From positions 434,001 through 498,000 of the forward strand of contig NZ_AEDD01000001.1 of the NCBI RefSeq assembly GCF_000179615.1: a DNA stretch of 64,000 nt. Direction: 5' to 3'. The first letter of the stretch is position 1, and every line of letters starts with the position of its first letter. A model generated the notes under the pieces. It saw only the letters and a list, made by a program, of their open reading frames with translations. It was not told where the DNA came from and ran no database searches. This document shows positions 8 through 31,339 of the stretch, in pieces. The stretch is from Paenibacillus curdlanolyticus YK9. Lineage in GTDB: Bacteria; Bacillota; Bacilli; Paenibacillales; Paenibacillaceae. Position numbers and translations under genes: made by a program.

Positions 8-1336
8 ATGAACGAGCCAACTTCTACAGCTTCTAATACAGAGGAGCCTGAGCGAAAGCTGGAAGTGGAGCAGCGCATTGGCGGTACGCAGAGCTTCCTT
101 CTAGGTCTGCAGCATGTGTTCGTCTCGAACGTCTGGCTGGACCCGCTCTTCATTGCCGTTATGATCGGCATGACGCCTTTTATGACATCTGGGCTCATTA
201 ATGCGGTATTCGTAGTGGCGGGGTTAGTTACGCTGACCCAAGCGACAAGGCTGGCCAAGCTGCCGATCGTGCAGGGGCCGTCCGCTTCCTTCGACGCGCT
301 AATGATCTCAACTGGCAAAACATCAGGGCTGGCAGCCGCTTCTGGCGGCATGCTCGTGAGCGCCATCGTCGTATTCATCCTGTCAATTACAGGCTGGATC
401 AGCAAGCTTCGAAGCTGGTTTACGCCAGCCGTGGCCGGCACGGTCATATGCGTAGTCGGTATCGCCTTATCGCAATTTACGATGTATGAATTTCTTGGCG
501 GAGCACCGGGGGAACCGGGTTTCTTGGCATCGCCTGTCCTCATTTTATCGATTACAACCGCAGCCATCGTCGTTATCCTTGCGAATTTCGGCCGAGGCTG
601 GCTTCAGCGTTATGCGTTTCTTATCGCGCTGCTTGTTGGAGACGTTGTCGCATGCTGCATGGGCAAAATTGATTTTAGCACGGTGGGCGCGCAGGACTGG
701 TTTGCTTTGCCTAAGCTGCTGCCTTACGGTGCCATCAAGTGGGATATGAGCATCATCGTTTCGTTTTTGATCGCTTATTTGGCTGCTATTATGGAAGCGA
801 TGGGCGTCTATCAAGCCGCTTCGGAGGTCACGGACGTCAAGCTGGATGATCGCCGCATCCGCCGAGGGTTTGTTGGCGAATCCTCAGGCTCGATCTTATC
901 CTCATTTTTGGGCGGCTTGCCTACAACGGCTTATGCGCAAAATGTGAGCCTGCTTCGACTGACCCGCACAGGCTCCCGATACCCGATTATATGGGCTGGC
1001 GCGATTTTTCTAGTGCTGGGCTTCGTTCCCAAAGCAGGAGCGGTGCTTGCGCTAACGCCATCACCGGTAGTGGGCGGCTTATTCCTGCCGGCAGCGGCAG
1101 GGCTTATTATGTCGGGCGTATCGCTATTGACGAAAATGGAAAAAACCGAAGCGAACTTTACGATTGTCGGCCTCGCGATTGTGCTGGCGATTGCATTGCC
1201 GGGCAACATGTCCGGCGTTTCGGGATTCTGGGGAACGGTACTGACGAACCAAGTGCTCGTCGGCGCGCTAAGCGTACTGCTGCTTCAGCTTCTGCTCGTT
1301 TCCATTCCCAAGCGAATTCGCAAATTGAATAAGTAA
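8..1336 (+). CDS. NCS2-family xanthine/uracil (nucleobase) permease
   Basis: Integral membrane proton symporter of the nucleobase/ascorbate (NCS2) family, 442 aa, with about 12-14 hydrophobic segments filling nearly the whole protein. The family hallmarks are visible: a Gln-His pair in the first membrane helix (residues 35-36) and the signature region QN-x-S-xxxx-TR at residues 311-320. The usual glycine at the fourth signature position is Ser314. The ATG is only 7 bases from the window edge, so no ribosome binding site can be judged and the true start could lie upstream. Family membership is secure. Substrate (uracil, xanthine or another purine) cannot be set from sequence alone. Confidence 0.88.
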   Translation: MNEPTSTASNTEEPERKLEVEQRIGGTQSFLLGLQHVFVSNVWLDPLFIAVMIGMTPFMTSGLINAVFVVAGLVTLTQATRLAKLPIVQGPSASFDALMISTGKTSGLAAASGGMLVSAIVVFILSITGWISKLRSWFTPAVAGTVICVVGIALSQFTMYEFLGGAPGEPGFLASPVLILSITTAAIVVILANFGRGWLQRYAFLIALLVGDVVACCMGKIDFSTVGAQDWFALPKLLPYGAIKWDMSIIVSFLIAYLAAIMEAMGVYQAASEVTDVKLDDRRIRRGFVGESSGSILSSFLGGLPTTAYAQNVSLLRLTRTGSRYPIIWAGAIFLVLGFVPKAGAVLALTPSPVVGGLFLPAAAGLIMSGVSLLTKMEKTEANFTIVGLAIVLAIALPGNMSGVSGFWGTVLTNQVLVGALSVLLLQLLLVSIPKRIRKLNK

Positions 1337-7537: not shown

Positions 7538-7559
7538 CCTATTGCGTACACGTTATTTT

Positions 7560-7588
7560 TTGACAAAATACATAATAGCGCTTACGAT
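7560..7588 (+). promoter_or_regulatory. Candidate sigma-A promoter of the PTS operon
   Basis: A perfect -35 TTGACA (7560-7565), a 17-base spacer and the -10 TACGAT (7583-7588) place transcription start about 25 bases before the TTG start codon of the EIICBA gene. Confidence 0.6.
7572..7587 (+). promoter_or_regulatory. Cre-like element overlapping the PTS promoter
   Basis: This 16-mer matches the CcpA operator consensus WTGNNARCGNWWWCAW at 14 of 16 positions, with mismatches at positions 3 and 15. It covers the spacer and -10, where bound CcpA would block RNA polymerase. The inference rests on a single imperfect match. Confidence 0.3.
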
Positions 7589-7619
7589 CGTACTAGATAT
7601 CGAGGGGAGGACACAGCAA

Positions 7620-9506
7620 TTGAACGTGCTCGGTAGGATGCAACAGCTAGGTAGATCGGTTATGCTGCCCATGATCGCATTGCCTGCAGCATCAATATTT
7701 CTTAGCTTGAGCACTCTGCCATGGGAAAGCGTCGGTTTAGGCAATATGGCTCATTATTTAGCTTTGGCGGGCCATGCGATTTTTGCCTTTCTGCCCTATG
7801 TATTTGCGCTTGGCGTAGCTGTCGGCATGTCTGGTAATGCTGGATCGGCCGGAATGGCTGCTCTAGCAGGGATGTTTATCTATGTAGGCATAACGCAGAC
7901 CAGCAATCCCGATATTCAGCCTACCGTATTTATTGGTGCCATCATGGGGCTTGTGTCAGGTTTAAGCTATGAGCGATTCAAAAATATTAAATTGCCGGAG
8001 TATATCCAATTTTTCGGCGGACCTCGTTTTGTTCCGTTATTTGTCAGTGTATTCGCCGTTATCTTCTCCGCTATGATGGTAGGAGCAGCGCCGCATATCC
8101 AAGATGGATTGTTTCGCCTTGGAGAAATCGTTAGCTCGGCTGGCGGGTTTGGCGTGTTTTTATATGGGTTTATTCATCGAATACTGGTTGTGTTCGGTTT
8201 GCATCATTTATTGAATCATGTTTTCTGGTTTCAAGTGGGCGGGTACACAGAGCCTGATGGGACTGTCGCTTATGGCGATCTTCCGCGTTTTTTTGCTGGA
8301 GATCCGACGGCGGGCGCTTATATGGCGGGGCTCTATCCGACGATGATGTTTGCGCTTCCTGCAATTGCGTTTGCTATTATTCAAGAAGCGCGCGAGGATT
8401 TGAAGCCCAAAATTCGCAAAACCTTTTTGTCCGCTGCGCTTGCGTCATTCCTTACAGGCGTAACGGAGCCGGTAGAGTTTGCGTTCCTATTCGTCGCGCC
8501 TTATTTGTTCGTCATTCACGCTTTATTGTCAGGCGTTATGATGTGGGTTACATACGAGCTAGGCATTCGGCACGGCTTTTCGTTCTCGGCCGGTGCGATC
8601 GATTATATTTTGAACGAGCATCTTGCCACGCGAGGACTGCTTATTATCCCGATTGGCCTCGTATTCGGAATTATTTATTACGTACTATTCCGATGGGCCA
8701 TTCGAAGGTTCCGCATTCCGACGCCGGGACGCGAAGAGGGCTCTCAGCTCGATGAGTGGGCAGGCGATATTCCATATCGCGCGCCATTGATTCTGGAAGC
8801 GATCGGCGGCAAAGAAAACATCGTACAGATGGAGGCATGCATTACGCGCCTTCGCTTGAAGGTTGCCAACGAGAAGCTGCTTGACATCAATTCGCTCCGA
8901 AATCTCGGTGCTGCCGGGGTAATCCGGCTTGGCGGCGGTCATGTACAGGTCGTATTCGGCACCTTCTCTGAACTCATACGCGAAGAGATGAACAAAGTCA
9001 TTCGCAATGACCAGACACAGCTGCTGTTCTGTTCGCCAGTCCAAGGCCGGATGATGCCGCTGGAGGAAGTGCCTGACCCGATTTTTGCAGGCAAGCTCGT
9101 CGGTCAAGGCGTTGCGTTCATGCCGGATAAAGGCGAACTGGTTTCTCCGGTTAAGGGGACCGTTATTCTCATTTATCCGACGATGCATGCTATCGGCATT
9201 CGAACCGAGGAAGGAATCGATGTTCTGCTGCATATCGGCATCGATACGTCGAAGCTTACGGATCATGGCTATTTTCAATCGGTTGTCAGCGAAGGGGAGA
9301 CGGTTTTGCCAGGTCAGTTGCTTATTCGGTTTGATTTGAATCGGATCCGCAAGGCGAGCAAATCGTTAGCGACACCGATGATCATAACGAACTCCGAACT
9401 GGTCAAAACCTGGCGCTTCGCTCCGTTCAAAGCGGTGAAGAAAGGCCAGGCATCGGTCATGTCGGTCGTACTACTAGAGAGAGACGCTGGGGGGGAGAAG
9501 CGATGA
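7620..9506 (+). CDS. PTS sugar permease EIICBA, glucose/N-acetylglucosamine family
   Basis: Membrane permease that imports and phosphorylates a sugar using phosphate from enzyme I and HPr. The N-terminal EIIC domain (about residues 1-375) carries GVTEPVEFAF. EIIB has the phospho-cysteine in ACITRLR at Cys407. EIIA (about 480-628) has the catalytic histidines at 523 and 538 (HIGID). The EIIC stretch with RFFAGDPTAGAYM resembles GlcNAc permeases more than glucose permeases. The best start is TTG 7620, ten bases after GGGGAGG; the next ATG (7638) is too far from that site. The stop overlaps the enzyme I start by ATGA, so the two are translationally coupled. Confidence 0.92.
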   Translation: MNVLGRMQQLGRSVMLPMIALPAASIFLSLSTLPWESVGLGNMAHYLALAGHAIFAFLPYVFALGVAVGMSGNAGSAGMAALAGMFIYVGITQTSNPDIQPTVFIGAIMGLVSGLSYERFKNIKLPEYIQFFGGPRFVPLFVSVFAVIFSAMMVGAAPHIQDGLFRLGEIVSSAGGFGVFLYGFIHRILVVFGLHHLLNHVFWFQVGGYTEPDGTVAYGDLPRFFAGDPTAGAYMAGLYPTMMFALPAIAFAIIQEAREDLKPKIRKTFLSAALASFLTGVTEPVEFAFLFVAPYLFVIHALLSGVMMWVTYELGIRHGFSFSAGAIDYILNEHLATRGLLIIPIGLVFGIIYYVLFRWAIRRFRIPTPGREEGSQLDEWAGDIPYRAPLILEAIGGKENIVQMEACITRLRLKVANEKLLDINSLRNLGAAGVIRLGGGHVQVVFGTFSELIREEMNKVIRNDQTQLLFCSPVQGRMMPLEEVPDPIFAGKLVGQGVAFMPDKGELVSPVKGTVILIYPTMHAIGIRTEEGIDVLLHIGIDTSKLTDHGYFQSVVSEGETVLPGQLLIRFDLNRIRKASKSLATPMIITNSELVKTWRFAPFKAVKKGQASVMSVVLLERDAGGEKR

Positions 9507-11233
9507 TAAACGGGATCGGCGCATCACCGGGAATTGCAATCGGCAAATCATTTGTTCTACCCAATTGGGAATGGGAGCTAACGGATCAAAAAATCGACGT
9601 CGCAGATCTCGCGCGCGAGTTCGAACGTTTATATGAGGGCATTCGCACCTCTAAGGTTGAGATCGAGCAGATGAAGGATGAGCTGCGGGAGGTCGTGGGC
9701 ACGGAGGAAAGCACAATATTCGATGCTCATCTCGCAATCCTTGATGATCCTGCCTTCATGAATGAAATTCAAGGGATGATTCAACGCCAGTATAAAGCGG
9801 CTGAAGTTGCCGTGAAGGAAGCGATCGACCATTTTGTGACGATGTTCGATCTGTTGGATGACGAGTACATGAAGGAACGGGCACTGGATATTAAGGATGT
9901 CGGCAATCGCTTGCTTAAACATCTGCTGGGCGCCCCAGAGATCACGTTGCCTTCTGATACGCAGCCCTTTATTCTCGTGGCCAAAGAGCTGTCTCCATCG
10001 CAGCTGGCGCATTTGAACCCGCAGCATGTACTGGGCATCGTTACGTTGTCGGGCAGCACGACCTCGCATTCCGCCATTATGGCGCGCGCTCTGGGCATCC
10101 CTCTCGTCGTTAGTCTGGTCGTTGAAGAGGCGCCGGAAGATCCGATTCAAACGGGCGAAATGCTCGTTATTGACGGCAATGAAGGCATCGTGCTGATCGA
10201 GCCGACCATCGAGGAGATCAAGCAATATGCAGAGCTGCAGCGTGTGCAGCGGGAAGCGCGCCAACGGCTTCGCGGCTTTGCCGATGTATTGCCGGTTACG
10301 CCGGATGGCAAGGAATTAGGGCTGGGGGCGAACATCAGCTCGCTGAAGGAGCTCGAAGTCGCATTAAGCAGCGGCGCTTATGGCGTCGGGCTGTTCCGAA
10401 CCGAATTTTTGTACATGGATCGGCAGCGGTTTCCGCGCGAAGACGAACAGTTTGATGTCTATCGAAGTGTGGCTGATCGCCTTGGCGGCAAGCCGCTTAT
10501 TATTAGAACGTTGGATATTGGCGGCGACAAACAGTTGGACTATTTCGAATTGCCGGAGGAAGATAATCCGTTTCTCGGGTATCGGGCGATTCGCATTAGC
10601 TTGGATCGCACAGACTTGTTCAAGACGCAGCTTCGGGCTATTTTGCGCGCAAGCCATTATGGCCAGGTCAAAATCATGTATCCGCTTATTAGCTCTGTCG
10701 AAGAAGTGCAGGGGGCGAATCGCCTCCTTGAGGAAGCGAAGCAAGAGCTGTTATTGGAAGGGATTCCATTCGATTCGCAGCTGGAAACCGGCATCATGAT
10801 TGAACTGCCAGCGGCGGTTCAAATCGCTGAGCTGCTCGCGGAGGAAGTTGATTTCTTCAGCATCGGAACGAATGATCTTGTCCAATTTACGTTGGCAGTC
10901 GATCGGATGAATGAACAAATTTCGTATTTGTATGAGCCGTTCCATCCAGCCATTCTGCGAATGCTGAAGATGACGGTAGAAGCCGCGAAGAAAAACGGCA
11001 TTAAAGTCAGCGTTTGCGGCGAAATGGCAAGCGATCTCGATGCGCTGCCGATATGGCTTGCGCTGGATGTCGATGAGCTTAGCATGTCGGGGCATTCCAT
11101 TTTGGAAGTCAAAGAGCGGCTGCTTCGCACGAATCAGTCAGAAAGCCGTGAATTGTTCGCTGAATTGCTGCGCTGCAGAACGAGTGCCGACATTCACGAC
11201 AAGCTCAAGTCGTTCGTCAAAGCGGTTCATTAA
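9503..11233 (+). CDS. ptsP: PTS enzyme I (phosphoenolpyruvate-protein phosphotransferase)
   Basis: Takes phosphate from PEP and hands it to HPr, the first step of all PTS sugar uptake; cytosolic dimer, 576 aa, standard length. The phosphorylated histidine is His189 in GSTTSHSAIMAR. The PEP-binding barrel carries GLFRTEFLYM, a metal-site region and the active-site cysteine Cys505 in VCGEMA. ATG 9503 overlaps the EIICBA stop and is preceded by a GGGGGGGAG site. ptsH, the usual neighbour, is absent here; the only HPr-like gene in the window is at 30.7 kb and lacks the catalytic histidine. Confidence 0.95.
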   Translation: MINGIGASPGIAIGKSFVLPNWEWELTDQKIDVADLAREFERLYEGIRTSKVEIEQMKDELREVVGTEESTIFDAHLAILDDPAFMNEIQGMIQRQYKAAEVAVKEAIDHFVTMFDLLDDEYMKERALDIKDVGNRLLKHLLGAPEITLPSDTQPFILVAKELSPSQLAHLNPQHVLGIVTLSGSTTSHSAIMARALGIPLVVSLVVEEAPEDPIQTGEMLVIDGNEGIVLIEPTIEEIKQYAELQRVQREARQRLRGFADVLPVTPDGKELGLGANISSLKELEVALSSGAYGVGLFRTEFLYMDRQRFPREDEQFDVYRSVADRLGGKPLIIRTLDIGGDKQLDYFELPEEDNPFLGYRAIRISLDRTDLFKTQLRAILRASHYGQVKIMYPLISSVEEVQGANRLLEEAKQELLLEGIPFDSQLETGIMIELPAAVQIAELLAEEVDFFSIGTNDLVQFTLAVDRMNEQISYLYEPFHPAILRMLKMTVEAAKKNGIKVSVCGEMASDLDALPIWLALDVDELSMSGHSILEVKERLLRTNQSESRELFAELLRCRTSADIHDKLKSFVKAVH

Positions 11234-13286: not shown

Positions 13287-13355
13287 ATTTTTGTCGTATC
13301 ATTACGTTAACATGAAGCGGTGCGATAAAAATTCGGAGCAATGGAGAGAAGGAAC

Positions 13356-14363
13356 GTGACGGTAACCATTTATGATGTAGCAAGGGAAGCAGGCGTGTCC
13401 ATGGCAACGGTATCTCGGGTTGTCAACAACAACCCGAACGTTAAGCCTCAGACACGCAAGAAGGTATACGAAGCGATTGAACGCCTCGGCTATCGTCCGA
13501 ACGCGGTTGCACGCGGATTGGCCAGTAAAAAAACGACGACGGTTGGCGTCGTAATTCCTGATATTTCAAACGCTATTTTTGCTGAAGTTGCGCGCGGAAT
13601 TGAAGATATTGCCAATATGTATCATTATAATATTATTTTGTGTAACGCAGATAAACGGAAAGAAAAGGAAATCCGTGTCATTAACACGCTACTCGAGAAG
13701 CAGGTTGATGGCTTGCTCTTCATGGGCGGCGCTGTTACCGAGGAGCATTTGCAAGCGTTCAAAACGGCTAACGTGCCTGTTGTGCTTTGCGCAACCTCCG
13801 ATGAGAATGGCCAGATCCCAGCGGTAGATATTAATCATGAGGAAGCTGCCTTTGATGCGGTGAAGACGCTTATCGCCAATGGACATCGCAAAATTGCGAT
13901 GATCAGCGGCACGCTGCAGGATCCATCGAATGGCTATGCCCGTTTCCATGGGTACAAGCGTGCGCTTGAAGCGGAAGGCATCGCGTATGACGAAGATCTT
14001 GTCCGCATTGGTAACTATCGTTATGAATCCGGCGTTGAAGCGGCTAAATATTTCTTAGAGCTCTCTGAGCGGCCTACTGCGATCTTCGCAGCCACGGATG
14101 AAATGGCGATCGGCGCGATTCACAGCATTCAGGATGCAGGCCTAAAGGTACCGGATCACGTATCTGTCATCAGTGTCGATAACAGCCGGATGGCATCGAT
14201 GGTCCGTCCTCAGCTGACGACCGTCGCGCAGCCGATGTATGATATCGGTGCGGTATCCATGCGTTTGCTGACGAAGCTGATGAAGAAGGAAGCGGTTGAC
14301 CAAGCAAAAGTTATTCTGCCGCATGAAGTCATTACTCGTAATTCGGTAGGAGGACTTGCTTAA
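13356..14363 (+). CDS. ccpA: Catabolite control protein A
   Basis: Global LacI-family regulator of carbon catabolite repression; binds cre sites with Ser46-phosphorylated HPr or Crh as corepressor. The N-terminal helix-turn-helix ([20 protein letters not shown]) and hinge helix ([14 protein letters not shown]) are nearly the B. subtilis sequence, and the periplasmic-binding-like core with [10 protein letters not shown] follows. GTG 13356 gives 335 aa, matching the known 334, while an ATG five codons upstream (13341) is also possible. Both have a close AGAAGG or CGGAG site. The stop overlaps the mtnN start (TAATG). Confidence 0.95.
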
Positions 14364-28410: not shown

Positions 28411-28448
28411 GGGACACTCGAGTAACACTCGCATAGTGTCCTTTTTTT
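28411..28448 (+). terminator. Terminator of the diguanylate cyclase gene
   Basis: A two-part stem (28412-28422 with 28428-28441, three-base bulge) is followed by seven T. Confidence 0.75.
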
Positions 28449-28501
28449 GTGGTTACATTACCCTTGATAACAGCCATCTCGTACAGGGTGGAGGAGCAAG
28501 G

Positions 28502-29380
28502 ATGACCAAAGGTCGATGGTGTAAGAGCTGGTTCATATCTTTTGTATGGTGCGCGGCGATTGGCGGGCTGACCGGCTGCGGCGATGTTTCAGGGACGATG
28601 GAACCGGAGAAGTTTTTTTCGCTTTCCGTTTCAGGTCTGGCAGGGAAAGATCAATATACATTCCAAGGCCAAAGCGGCGTGGTATTGCCCGCCGGCGTCC
28701 GCGTACATGCCTTACAGTACCGAGGGGAGATTTCGGCGCATTCGCGTATGAAGGTCCAATTGAGCGGCGATGGAGACGGGGCTGGAGGAAGCAAGGGAAT
28801 CGGGCTGCTGTCCACGACGGACGAATGGCGGGCAATACCTCGGAAGGGTGCTGACCAATGGACGCAAGTACCCGACATGAAGGGATTGGGCGCTAAATCG
28901 ATGACGGGCGCGCAGACAAGCGGAAAGCTTCATTCCTGGAGCGAGGAAAGCTGGGCAGGCATTAACCCTGTTGAACGGCTGGAGCGCATTAGAGATGCTG
29001 CTAAACGCGTTATGTACGATGAGTCGGATAACGATAGCGGATATCGCGTGGTACGCATCGTTCTCGACGGGGCAGCGGCGAAGAAGGACTGGAGCGATCG
29101 CATACAAGCGGAGTGGAGCAAGGTGAAGGGCGAGCAGCCCCTACTGGCGGCATCAAGCCACATGAAGAGCAGTACATGGCAAGCGGCGTATGCTGAGGCG
29201 GATAAACAACTGCAAGCGATGCTGCGATCGCTGACGGCAGAGACAACCATTATTTTAAAGGCTGATCGTCGTTCCATGCTGCCGCTTCACATTACAGAGC
29301 AATCCAAGCTACAGTTTATGTCGGAAGGACAGGCAAGAGAAGAATTTTATACGAATGAAGTCAACTTCGGTGATTACTGA
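28502..29380 (+). CDS. Putative lipoprotein, 292 aa, unknown function
   Basis: ATG 28502 follows GGAGGAG. The N-terminal signal (about residues 1-25) ends in the lipobox LTGC, predicting lipid anchoring on the outer face of the membrane. The mature part has no motif I recognise; it is Gly/Ser-rich at 90-130 and helical near 220-260. The G+C-rich plus-one frame is also open here, which is coincidental. A possible sporulation or stress lipoprotein, but nothing in the sequence fixes a role. Confidence 0.72.
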   Translation: MTKGRWCKSWFISFVWCAAIGGLTGCGDVSGTMEPEKFFSLSVSGLAGKDQYTFQGQSGVVLPAGVRVHALQYRGEISAHSRMKVQLSGDGDGAGGSKGIGLLSTTDEWRAIPRKGADQWTQVPDMKGLGAKSMTGAQTSGKLHSWSEESWAGINPVERLERIRDAAKRVMYDESDNDSGYRVVRIVLDGAAAKKDWSDRIQAEWSKVKGEQPLLAASSHMKSSTWQAAYAEADKQLQAMLRSLTAETTIILKADRRSMLPLHITEQSKLQFMSEGQAREEFYTNEVNFGDY

Positions 29381-29468
29381 TTCATTGACTGTTCTATGTG
29401 CAACTGATGAGGTAACCATGCTACGATACACGAGAGCAATAAAGATGGTGAGCAAGGGGGCTCGAACG

Positions 29469-30584
29469 ATGTACGATAGCAGGTTAAAGCAATTAGCGGA
29501 AAATTTGGTCCAATACTCGGTTGATGTGCAGCCTGGCGAAAATATTCTGATTGACTATACGGGCAGTGAGCGCGAGCTGGTGAAGCAGCTGGTTGAAGAA
29601 GTGGCCAAACGTGGAGGCCGCCCATTCGTAGAAACAAGTGATCGGGGCGTGCTGCGCGCCTTGCTTCGCAATGCATCCAAGGAGCAGCTGGAAATATGGG
29701 CGGAGCTTGATCTGGCGCGCATGAAACGCATGCAGGGCTATATTGCCGTCCGGTCCGGCGATAATGTGAATGAGCTGTCTGACGTGCCAAGCGATCACAT
29801 GAAGTTGTACGAGTCGATCTATCGTCACCCGGTTCACTCCGAGCAGCGAGTCAAGAAGACTAGGTGGGTCGTGCTGCGATACCCGAATGCATCTATGGCT
29901 CAATTAGCCAATATGAGCAATGAAGCATTCGAGAATTTTTATTTCGATGTGTGCAATCTCGACTACAGCAAGATGGAGAAGGCGATGGAGCCCCTGCGCC
30001 AGTTGATGCTGAAGACGGATCGTGTTCGAATTGTAGCGCCTGGAACGGAGTTGACTTTCTCGATTAAAGGCATTGGGGCTGTTAATTGTTCGGGTCACCG
30101 CAACATTCCTGATGGGGAGGTGTACTCGGCGCCGGTCCGCGATTCGGTACAAGGAACGATTACCTACAATACGCCTTCGATCTATTCAGGCGTTACGTTC
30201 GAGCAAGTTTCATTTACTTTCGAAAATGGAAAAATCGTGCATGCGACAGCCAATGACACGAAGCGGCTGAACGAAATTTTGGATTCAGACGAGGGTGCCC
30301 GTTACATCGGGGAATTCAGCCTAGGGTTTAATCCCTATATTTTGCATCCGATGAAAGATATTTTGTTTGATGAGAAAATTGCAGGCAGCCTGCATTTCAC
30401 TCCGGGTCAAGCTTATGAGCAGGCCGATAACGGCAATCGTTCTGCGGTCCATTGGGATCTTGTGCTGATTCAGCGACCTGACTATGGAGGCGGAGAAGTT
30501 TACTTCGACGATGTGTTGATTCGTAAAGATGGAATGTTCGTAATTGATGCGCTTACAGGATTAAATCCAGAAAATTTGAGATAA
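29469..30584 (+). CDS. M29 family aminopeptidase (AmpS/PepS type)
   Basis: Cytosolic dinuclear-metal exopeptidase releasing N-terminal residues. 371 aa from ATG 29469, which follows AAGGGGG; slightly shorter than typical (about 400-410). Family landmarks include the metal-ligand glutamates in NIPDGEVYSAP and YIGEFSLG, the LHFTPGQAY segment and the C-terminal VHWDLV with His and Asp ligands. In-frame codons upstream lack a ribosome binding site. It stands alone between the lipoprotein and HPr-like genes. Confidence 0.9.
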   Translation: MYDSRLKQLAENLVQYSVDVQPGENILIDYTGSERELVKQLVEEVAKRGGRPFVETSDRGVLRALLRNASKEQLEIWAELDLARMKRMQGYIAVRSGDNVNELSDVPSDHMKLYESIYRHPVHSEQRVKKTRWVVLRYPNASMAQLANMSNEAFENFYFDVCNLDYSKMEKAMEPLRQLMLKTDRVRIVAPGTELTFSIKGIGAVNCSGHRNIPDGEVYSAPVRDSVQGTITYNTPSIYSGVTFEQVSFTFENGKIVHATANDTKRLNEILDSDEGARYIGEFSLGFNPYILHPMKDILFDEKIAGSLHFTPGQAYEQADNGNRSAVHWDLVLIQRPDYGGGEVYFDDVLIRKDGMFVIDALTGLNPENLR

Positions 30585-30607: not shown

Positions 30608-30636
30608 TTGAATGACGCTTCTTTTCACGGTATGAT
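30608..30636 (+). promoter_or_regulatory. Promoter of the HPr-like gene
   Basis: TTGAAT, a 17-base spacer and TATGAT lie 49 bases before the ATG. Confidence 0.65.
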
Positions 30637-30684
30637 GAAGACGTTATTAAGGAAATGGTTACTATCTAGGGTGGAGGGATCTTC

Positions 30685-30927
30685 ATGTCCAACAATGCAG
30701 CAATCGTAGAAATTTCCCAAACAGCTAGCCAATTTCGGTCCTCGATCGTTCTTCAAGCGGAAAACAAATATATTGACGTGAAAAGCATTCTTGGTTTGTT
30801 TACGACGTTGCTCGGCGGTCAATCGTATGAGTTGCACGTTCACGGTCCGGATGCTGAAGAGGCGAAAAAGGCAATGGCGAATGTATTTGCTAAACATAAC
30901 TTGAACATTACGGTGATTAGCGAATAA
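30685..30927 (+). CDS. HPr-like protein lacking the catalytic histidine (Crh-like?)
   Basis: 80 aa against 85-88 for HPr. The second helix motif KSILGL (Ser34) aligns with the regulatory Ser46 region of HPr. The C-terminal helix pattern DAEEAKKAMANVF also fits. At the active-site loop, GIHARPA of HPr is replaced by SQFRSSI, with Gln where His15 should be, as in Crh. About 12 residues between helix 1 and the serine helix are missing. It therefore cannot pass phosphate in the PTS. A regulatory role with HPr kinase and CcpA is possible but unproven. GGAGG precedes ATG 30685, and it has its own promoter and terminator. Confidence 0.7.
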   Translation: MSNNAAIVEISQTASQFRSSIVLQAENKYIDVKSILGLFTTLLGGQSYELHVHGPDAEEAKKAMANVFAKHNLNITVISE

Positions 30928-30940
30928 TGTTGTGGAAGAG

Positions 30941-30963
30941 AAAGCGCCCTTAATGGGCGCTTT
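30941..30963 (+). terminator. Terminator of the HPr-like gene
   Basis: A perfect 9-bp stem AAAGCGCCC/GGGCGCTTT has a five-base loop, and T-rich sequence follows. Confidence 0.7.
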
Positions 30964-31051: not shown

Positions 31052-31339
31052 ATGTCTTCACCGGATGTTATGGAGCATTTGCATCAGAAAGCATTCAATC
31101 TTCTCGAGGAAGATGCCAATAAAATCGAAAAGCTGATCGAAGTTCAGATGGAAAACTTGACGACGCGTCAATGCCCTCTTTATGAGGAAGTATTGGATAC
31201 GCAGATGTATGGCTTCTCCCGTGAAGTTGATTTTGCGGTGAGAGCAGGACTGGTTGAAGAATCAGTTGGTCGGGACATCGTGAGCAAGCTGGAACGGAAC
31301 TTAGCTAAGTTGTATGAAGCATTGAATAACAAGGAGTAG
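31052..31339 (+). CDS. ylaN: YlaN family protein (UPF0358)
   Basis: 95-aa helical cytosolic protein. The block CPLYEEVLDTQMYGFSREVD is nearly identical to B. subtilis YlaN. YlaN is important for growth under iron limitation and, in staphylococci, is reported to influence Fur. ATG 31052 follows a run of six G; the frame is open seven codons upstream without a site. It is monocistronic. Confidence 0.92.
   Translation: MSSPDVMEHLHQKAFNLLEEDANKIEKLIEVQMENLTTRQCPLYEEVLDTQMYGFSREVDFAVRAGLVEESVGRDIVSKLERNLAKLYEALNNKE

Follow-up and report, generated by a model that had tools for sequence, protein, structure and literature searches.

The window, the whole 64,000-nucleotide stretch of Paenibacillus curdlanolyticus YK9 DNA analysed here, encodes a truncated HPr-like protein that keeps the serine helix of HPr and has lost the phosphocarrier site. 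The protein, which we name HPRL1, is the product of a near-universal core gene of the Paenibacillus order (Paenibacillales); its divergent paralogues are named HPRL2. We assign a probability of about 0.55 to HPRL1 being an HPr-fold protein that is uncoupled from the PTS and regulates carbon metabolism, with HPr kinase acting on Ser34 as the probable switch.

The HPRL1 gene and its truncated HPr fold

The gene and its expression signals are positioned as follows.

30608..30636, + strand: σA-type promoter of HPRL1, TTGAAT-17-TATGAT (promoter scan and footprint conservation)
30671..30679, + strand: HPRL1 ribosome-binding site, gtggaggga (sequence; GGAGG-type site in the locus alignment)
30685..30927, + strand: HPRL1, truncated HPr-like protein gene (80-aa open reading frame, Pfam PTS-HPr match, dN/dS)
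30941..30963, + strand: HPRL1 intrinsic terminator with a 9-bp stem (terminator scan; hairpins in aligned loci)

HPRL1 is a real gene under strong purifying selection (dN/dS 0.02–0.065). The ratio is 0.024–0.065 against L002 and six other relatives with computable dS, which is near saturation; dN is 0 against L001, and dS is not computable against L003. These ratios rule out a pseudogene, and a wrongly called start codon hiding strand β1 is likewise ruled out, the frame being open for only 85 codons with a conserved start and ribosome-binding site. The initial annotation gave HPRL1 its own promoter and terminator, and conservation bears this out: 18/18 of the upstream regions aligned retain the TTG...TATNAT pair, and most of the 15 downstream regions aligned have a GC hairpin at the same position. 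The promoter scan by itself did not rise above chance (2 found versus 3.2 expected).

Five segments of the coding region are used in the comparison with HPr.

30688..30726, + strand: residues 2–14, N-terminal helix corresponding to HPr helix A, with no preceding β1 (AF2, VIA, alignment columns)
30727..30747, + strand: SQFRSSI, spanning the close of helix A and the beginning of β2, HPr 27–33, not the active-site loop (Pfam, phmmer, VIA, hhalign)
30784..30786, + strand: Ser34 codon in KSILGL, corresponding to HPr Ser46, the presumed HPr-kinase site (orthologue columns, paralogue motif)
30826..30843, + strand: YELHVH strand, β4 (orthologue columns; strand in AF2)
30907..30918, + strand: extra C-terminal strand, residues 75–78, absent from canonical HPr (AF2 of HPRL1 and HPRL2)

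HPRL1 matches the Pfam PTS-HPr profile (PF00381) at 35.3 bits (cut-off 23, E 1.2e-8), with residues 9–69 on profile positions 20–80 of 81, and 75/75 rows of its family alignment match the same profile at E ≤ 0.001. A phmmer search of PDB chains pairs HPRL1 SQTASQFRSSIVLQ with HPr VQTASKFSSQIWVE, from HPr position 23 onward, and profile-profile alignment by hhalign against 30 canonical HPr sequences from this order places residues 11–74 on HPr 23–87 (probability 96.7, E 4.6e-10). All three methods set HPRL1 from residue 9, 10 or 11 onward on HPr from 20–23 onward, and because they agree, SQFRSSI corresponds to HPr 27–33; SQTASQF forms the C-terminal half of helix A (HPr 23–29). The initial annotation had read SQFRSSI as the active-site loop with its Gln aligned to His15; that Gln instead aligns with HPr 28. 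The accompanying estimate of about 12 missing residues holds in number but not in place, the deletion being N-terminal (β1 and the active-site loop) rather than in the stretch linking helix 1 to the serine helix.

The position of His15 is taken by Asn3 and that of Arg17 by Ala5 (VIA, alignment columns). Across 116 orthologues the His15 place holds Asn in 102 and His in one; His also stands there in 3/33 HPRL2 paralogues, and in all these proteins it lacks the surrounding active-site loop. Arg is found at the Arg17 place in 0/116 orthologues, and Arg or Lys in 23/33 paralogues. Lacking His15, its loop and Arg17, HPRL1 is unable to carry phosphate for the PTS in the way HPr does.

The AF2 model of HPRL1, built from 75 family members (55–93% identical to the window protein), has a pLDDT of 87.5 and a pTM of 0.73. 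Its elements run H2–14, E20–25, E28–31, H35–41, E48–53, H57–70 and E75–78, without β1, and the model begins at HPr residue 11–12 (VIA). The initial annotation had proposed a fold check against HPr and Crh, and no fold unlike HPr emerged: HPr and Crh chains are the top Foldseek and VIA matches, including 1ptf (Foldseek E 1.3e-5), 1pch (Z 12.5, 73 aligned, rmsd 1.6) and Crh 1mu4 (Z 11.1, 70 aligned, rmsd 2.1). Several VIA rows pair model residues 3..72 with HPr 15..85, residue 3 falling on HPr 15. A separate AF2 model of HPRL2 (32 rows, pLDDT 89.0) shows the same element order, again without β1, and is also closest to HPr and Crh, with Crh 1mu4 as the Foldseek top match (E 1e-4). Our guess from the models is that the C-terminal strand fills the place of β1. 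Matches to ZnT and NifU folds (Z about 4–5) were taken as background.

HPRL1 shares with HPr (PtsH, PF00381) the fold, with Z up to 12.5, the Ser46 helix and the 35.3-bit Pfam match; unlike HPr, it has no β1, His15 loop or Arg17, carries the extra C-terminal strand and falls below the NCBIfam cut-offs (33.9 bits on TIGR01003, cut-off 47.9). NPr (PtsO) also has the HPr fold (5t17, Z 7.4, 65 aligned, rmsd 1.7), but NPr is a carrier phosphorylated on His, a residue that HPRL lacks at that place.

The serine-kinase helix KSILGL is kept, as first annotated, with Ser34 at HPr Ser46. Ser34 is present in 116/116 HPRL1 orthologues and 33/33 HPRL2 paralogues, the latter counted by motif since the column table misplaces four paralogues with a one-residue insertion and omits L271. 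Unvarying in the 116 distinct orthologues are A6, A14, S19, S20, V22, L23, K28, I30, D31, V32, K33, S34, L36, G37, L38, L42, Y48, L50, H51, G54, D56 and F68. The invariance of Ser34 could be structural, as a helix cap, because the nearby K33, L36, G37 and L38 are equally invariant. On the YELHVH strand, His51 is present in 116/116 and His53 in 115/116 HPRL1 orthologues; the His51 position is mostly Glu or Asp in HPRL2. Within the order, canonical HPr is itself nearly invariant (mean column identity 91%), including much of the sheet, so sheet conservation by itself marks no new site and the idea of a wholly new sheet face in HPRL1 is weakened.

A core gene apart from the PTS operon

The genes around HPRL1 that bear on its context are listed below.

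7542..11233, + strand: PTS IICBA-type gene overlapping ptsI (EI), no ptsH adjoining (Pfam and gene searches)
13341..14363, + strand: ccpA, 16.3 kb upstream of HPRL1 (TIGR01481, 492.1 bits, cut-off 442.35)
29355..30584, + strand: M29-type aminopeptidase gene, directly upstream of HPRL1 (Pfam; synteny)
31052..31339, + strand: ylaN/fpa (DUF1507), downstream of HPRL1 (Pfam; synteny)

The aminopeptidase gene lies directly 5' of HPRL1 in 135/140 distinct loci, on the same strand in 129, and ylaN/fpa follows on the same strand in 140/140. In L002–L005, L027 and L130 the aminopeptidase gene is inverted, with the HPRL1–ylaN order unchanged. A fast-evolving gene with no Pfam match lies at 28436–29380 of the window, between a diguanylate cyclase gene and the aminopeptidase gene; its relatives in the same place are 20–46% identical, and that of the closest strain 73%. 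The core region of Paenibacillus cellulosilyticus, with rpsD, is carried on a 508-kb replicon labelled plasmid (NZ_CP054609.1 155982–172221, L219).

Upstream, the window runs from the PTS IICBA gene and ptsI to ccpA, an MTA/SAH nucleosidase gene and an acetate-CoA ligase gene, and HPRL1 is indeed separate from the PTS operon, as the initial annotation stated. The distance from ccpA to HPRL1 is 13.2–17.3 kb in seven genomes of four families; this proximity may be old synteny, given its likeness to the ccpA-acs-rpsD region of Bacillus.

The YK9 genome encodes two PF00381 proteins, HPRL1 and a full-length His15 HPr behind whiA (L081:1477–1788, − strand). The latter belongs to the same fold family and is 28% identical to HPRL1 over about 65 residues, but unlike HPRL1 is full-length with His15, Arg17 and Ser46. 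It scores 130.4 on NF010354, which we take to be the Crh-type model, over the cut-off of 123. The place behind whiA is that of crh in Bacillus subtilis, and in this order the gene at the crh locus seems to act as the working ptsH; the main HPr of the order has His15 in 30/30 loci read (L173–L202).

Crh keeps β1, Arg17 and Gln15 and is encoded behind whiA. HPRL1 resembles it in having the HPr fold and Ser46, in lacking the active-site His and in lying outside the PTS operon, and differs in having neither Gln15 nor Arg17 nor β1, in its locus and in its NF010354 score of 29.5 against the equivalog cut-off of 123. By these features the initial label of Crh type is wrong, as was the alignment behind it. 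The second suggestion made there, of an HPr-fold domain repurposed for another task, is right in kind: repurposing for regulation is well supported by the fold, the missing active-site His, the invariant Ser46 helix, the strong selection and the position outside the PTS operon.

With the window protein as query, 245/245 genomes of the same family matched with E ≤ 7.5e-28, and 145/149 genomes of an order sample carry a match; pooled, with 63 HPRL-bearing genomes common to the two samples, 327/331 genomes of the order carry HPRL. In the four that lack it (G246, G254, G260 and G268), the aminopeptidase gene adjoins ylaN with nothing HPr-like between. Loss is likely in G260 because G253, of the same family, has the gene. 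Outside the order, the family profile found members in 2/272 genomes of the class sample (98.8 and 90.2 bits), both HPRL2-like; among the matches listed, all others from outside reach at most 44.4 bits, as canonical HPr does. Of the 299 genomes in a phylum sample, E 1e-12 is passed only by the five that belong to the order. A phage or plasmid origin was rejected: searches of phage records and viral contigs gave no HPRL match, and two plasmid records carry a member, one being a Paenibacillus megaplasmid whose gene order is that of the chromosome and the other a Priestia plasmid with HPRL2.

HPr kinase was found in 24/25 genomes tested, including 21/21 with HPRL, and ccpA in 14/14, 13 of them over the cut-off. 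The failure to find HPr kinase in G268 is a weak negative, the same search having missed it in Bacillus subtilis, which has the enzyme. G246, G254 and G260 keep HPr kinase and ccpA without HPRL, so HPRL is not needed for the HPr kinase/CcpA pathway.

Paralogues in organic-acid operons

HPRL2 occurs in some larger genomes, in the two genomes outside the order and on the Priestia plasmid, and six measured members are 46–62% identical to the HPRL1 of the window over the matched part. In a tree built on 82 columns, in which many forks are unresolved, HPRL1 and HPRL2 are split from canonical HPr by a 100/100 branch. L267–L270 nest inside HPRL1 (100/99), and because L269 among them is linked to tct genes, the tct link is suggested to have arisen twice, independently.

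The 33 HPRL2 loci form a non-random sample, comprising six first-sampled loci, the plasmid and 26 loci from 47 genomes picked mostly for extra matches; their neighbours were grouped by single-linkage clustering of ORFs, with Pfam run on one or two representatives per cluster. Here tctA and tctC lie upstream on the same strand in 23/33 loci (tctB in 22), a malic enzyme gene ends at the HPRL2 start in 15/33, a DpiA-type (citrate-type) response regulator is present in 8/33 and TerC in 5/33. The remaining ten loci have no tctA nearby, L271 following a sugar-type ABC transporter, and the Priestia plasmid gene adjoins a LacI regulator near a citrate symporter. AEC-transporter operons also hold HPRL2, and several loci include a citrate-type two-component system (L138–L144, L250–L275). 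No tctA homologue was found in HPRL1 loci L001–L137, whose flanks are mostly 1.5–4 kb. The common theme suggested by the tct and malic-enzyme operons is organic-acid carbon.

Proposed function and its alternatives

The fold, the truncation, the invariance of Ser34, the near-universal distribution, the synteny and the operon links are computational results; from them we infer the phosphorylation of HPRL, the direction of the switch and the partner. An HPr-type ancestor would have lost β1 and the phosphocarrier loop with His15 and Arg17, and HPRL1 would have retained helix A, the sheet and the Ser46 helix while gaining a C-terminal strand. HPRL1 cannot pass on EI phosphate as HPr does; most likely, Ser34 would be phosphorylated by HPr kinase according to carbon state. 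In its phosphorylated or dephosphorylated form the protein would dock through its helix A/helix B face on a carbon-metabolism partner, perhaps also using the His51/His53 sheet face. HPRL1 would act genome-wide and HPRL2 would serve its own tricarboxylate-transport/malic-enzyme operon. Counted against this proposal, the HPRL1 neighbours, aminopeptidase and ylaN, are not carbon genes, and HPRL1 may be no substrate of HPr kinase if the kinase needs residues near HPr 15–17.

Precedent exists for both CcpA corepression and direct enzyme control. According to PMC3463425, HPr kinase phosphorylates Ser46 of both HPr and Crh, and a specific role of Crh is described for non-carbohydrate substrates; according to PMC13130090, unphosphorylated Crh inhibits methylglyoxal synthase (MgsA), and Crh may replace HPr in Geobacillus catabolite repression. 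Direct, CcpA-independent regulation of an enzyme or transporter, as by Crh on MgsA, is a possible though not a probable reading, in which the target would be TctA or malic enzyme of the same operon for HPRL2 and a housekeeping enzyme for HPRL1. The same-strand tctCBA genes ahead of HPRL2 (23/33), the abutting malic enzyme (15/33) and the apparently independent second link at L269 favour it, as do His51 and His53, invariant or nearly so in HPRL1 at positions presumably exposed in HPr; yet His51 is mostly replaced in HPRL2, and operon position is by itself no proof of contact and supplies candidate partners only. A Crh-like role, in which HPRL phosphorylated at Ser34 would bind CcpA and aid cre binding, is consistent with the retained Ser46 helix, the presence of HPr kinase, the nearby ccpA (13–17 kb off in the seven genomes), Arg or Lys at the Arg17 place in 21/23 tct-linked HPRL2, the Crh match of the HPRL2 model and the known Crh role on non-carbohydrate substrates. 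We nevertheless regard it as doubtful: Arg17 is absent from all 116 HPRL1 sequences, and in HPRL1 Leu and Phe replace HPr Met48 and Met51. The title of a 2007 study by Horstmann, cited in PMC4591507, names both His15 and Arg17 in CcpA signalling. A global regulator's corepressor does not have to be encoded in its target operon, so the tct and malic-enzyme operons lean slightly towards direct or local control.

HPRL might also be a decoy, dampening repression through competition with HPr for the kinase or for CcpA, having the same face and no phosphocarrier function; this is unlikely, as closer tracking of the partner-facing residues of HPr would be expected, but helix A of HPRL has been rewritten and shows conservation of its own. 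Phosphate transfer through another histidine is highly improbable: His51, His53 and His71 are near-invariant in HPRL1, but His51 is missing from most HPRL2, and the three lie off what we take to be the EI-docking face.

Searches of open-licence literature on His-less HPr-like proteins, Paenibacillus HPr, and HPr with tricarboxylate transporters listed no description of the HPRL family, and the accessible part of a phylogeny of PTS phosphoryl-transfer chains (PMC2405797) mentions no such family. PMC4765114 reports that an unlinked HPr gene of Paenibacillus sp. JDR-2, its role unclear, is expressed constitutively at a high level; this could be either HPr-type gene. The two plasmid records annotate HPRL as 'HPr family phosphocarrier protein', a mislabel in both cases, and the family, carried by hundreds of genomes, is probably a regulator mislabelled as a phosphocarrier in databases. 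By one natural deletion, HPRL splits the role of HPr as a phosphate carrier from its role as a serine-switched regulator, and the candidate partners supplied by the HPRL2 operons make the roles of HPr-like paralogues beyond CcpA directly testable. Tentatively, HPRL may represent an unrecognised class of PTS-uncoupled HPr-fold signalling proteins, with one global member in nearly all genomes of the order and additional members dedicated to single operons of tricarboxylate transporters and malic enzymes, all read by HPr kinase at one serine. If so, carbon state would reach single operons through private HPr-like switches.
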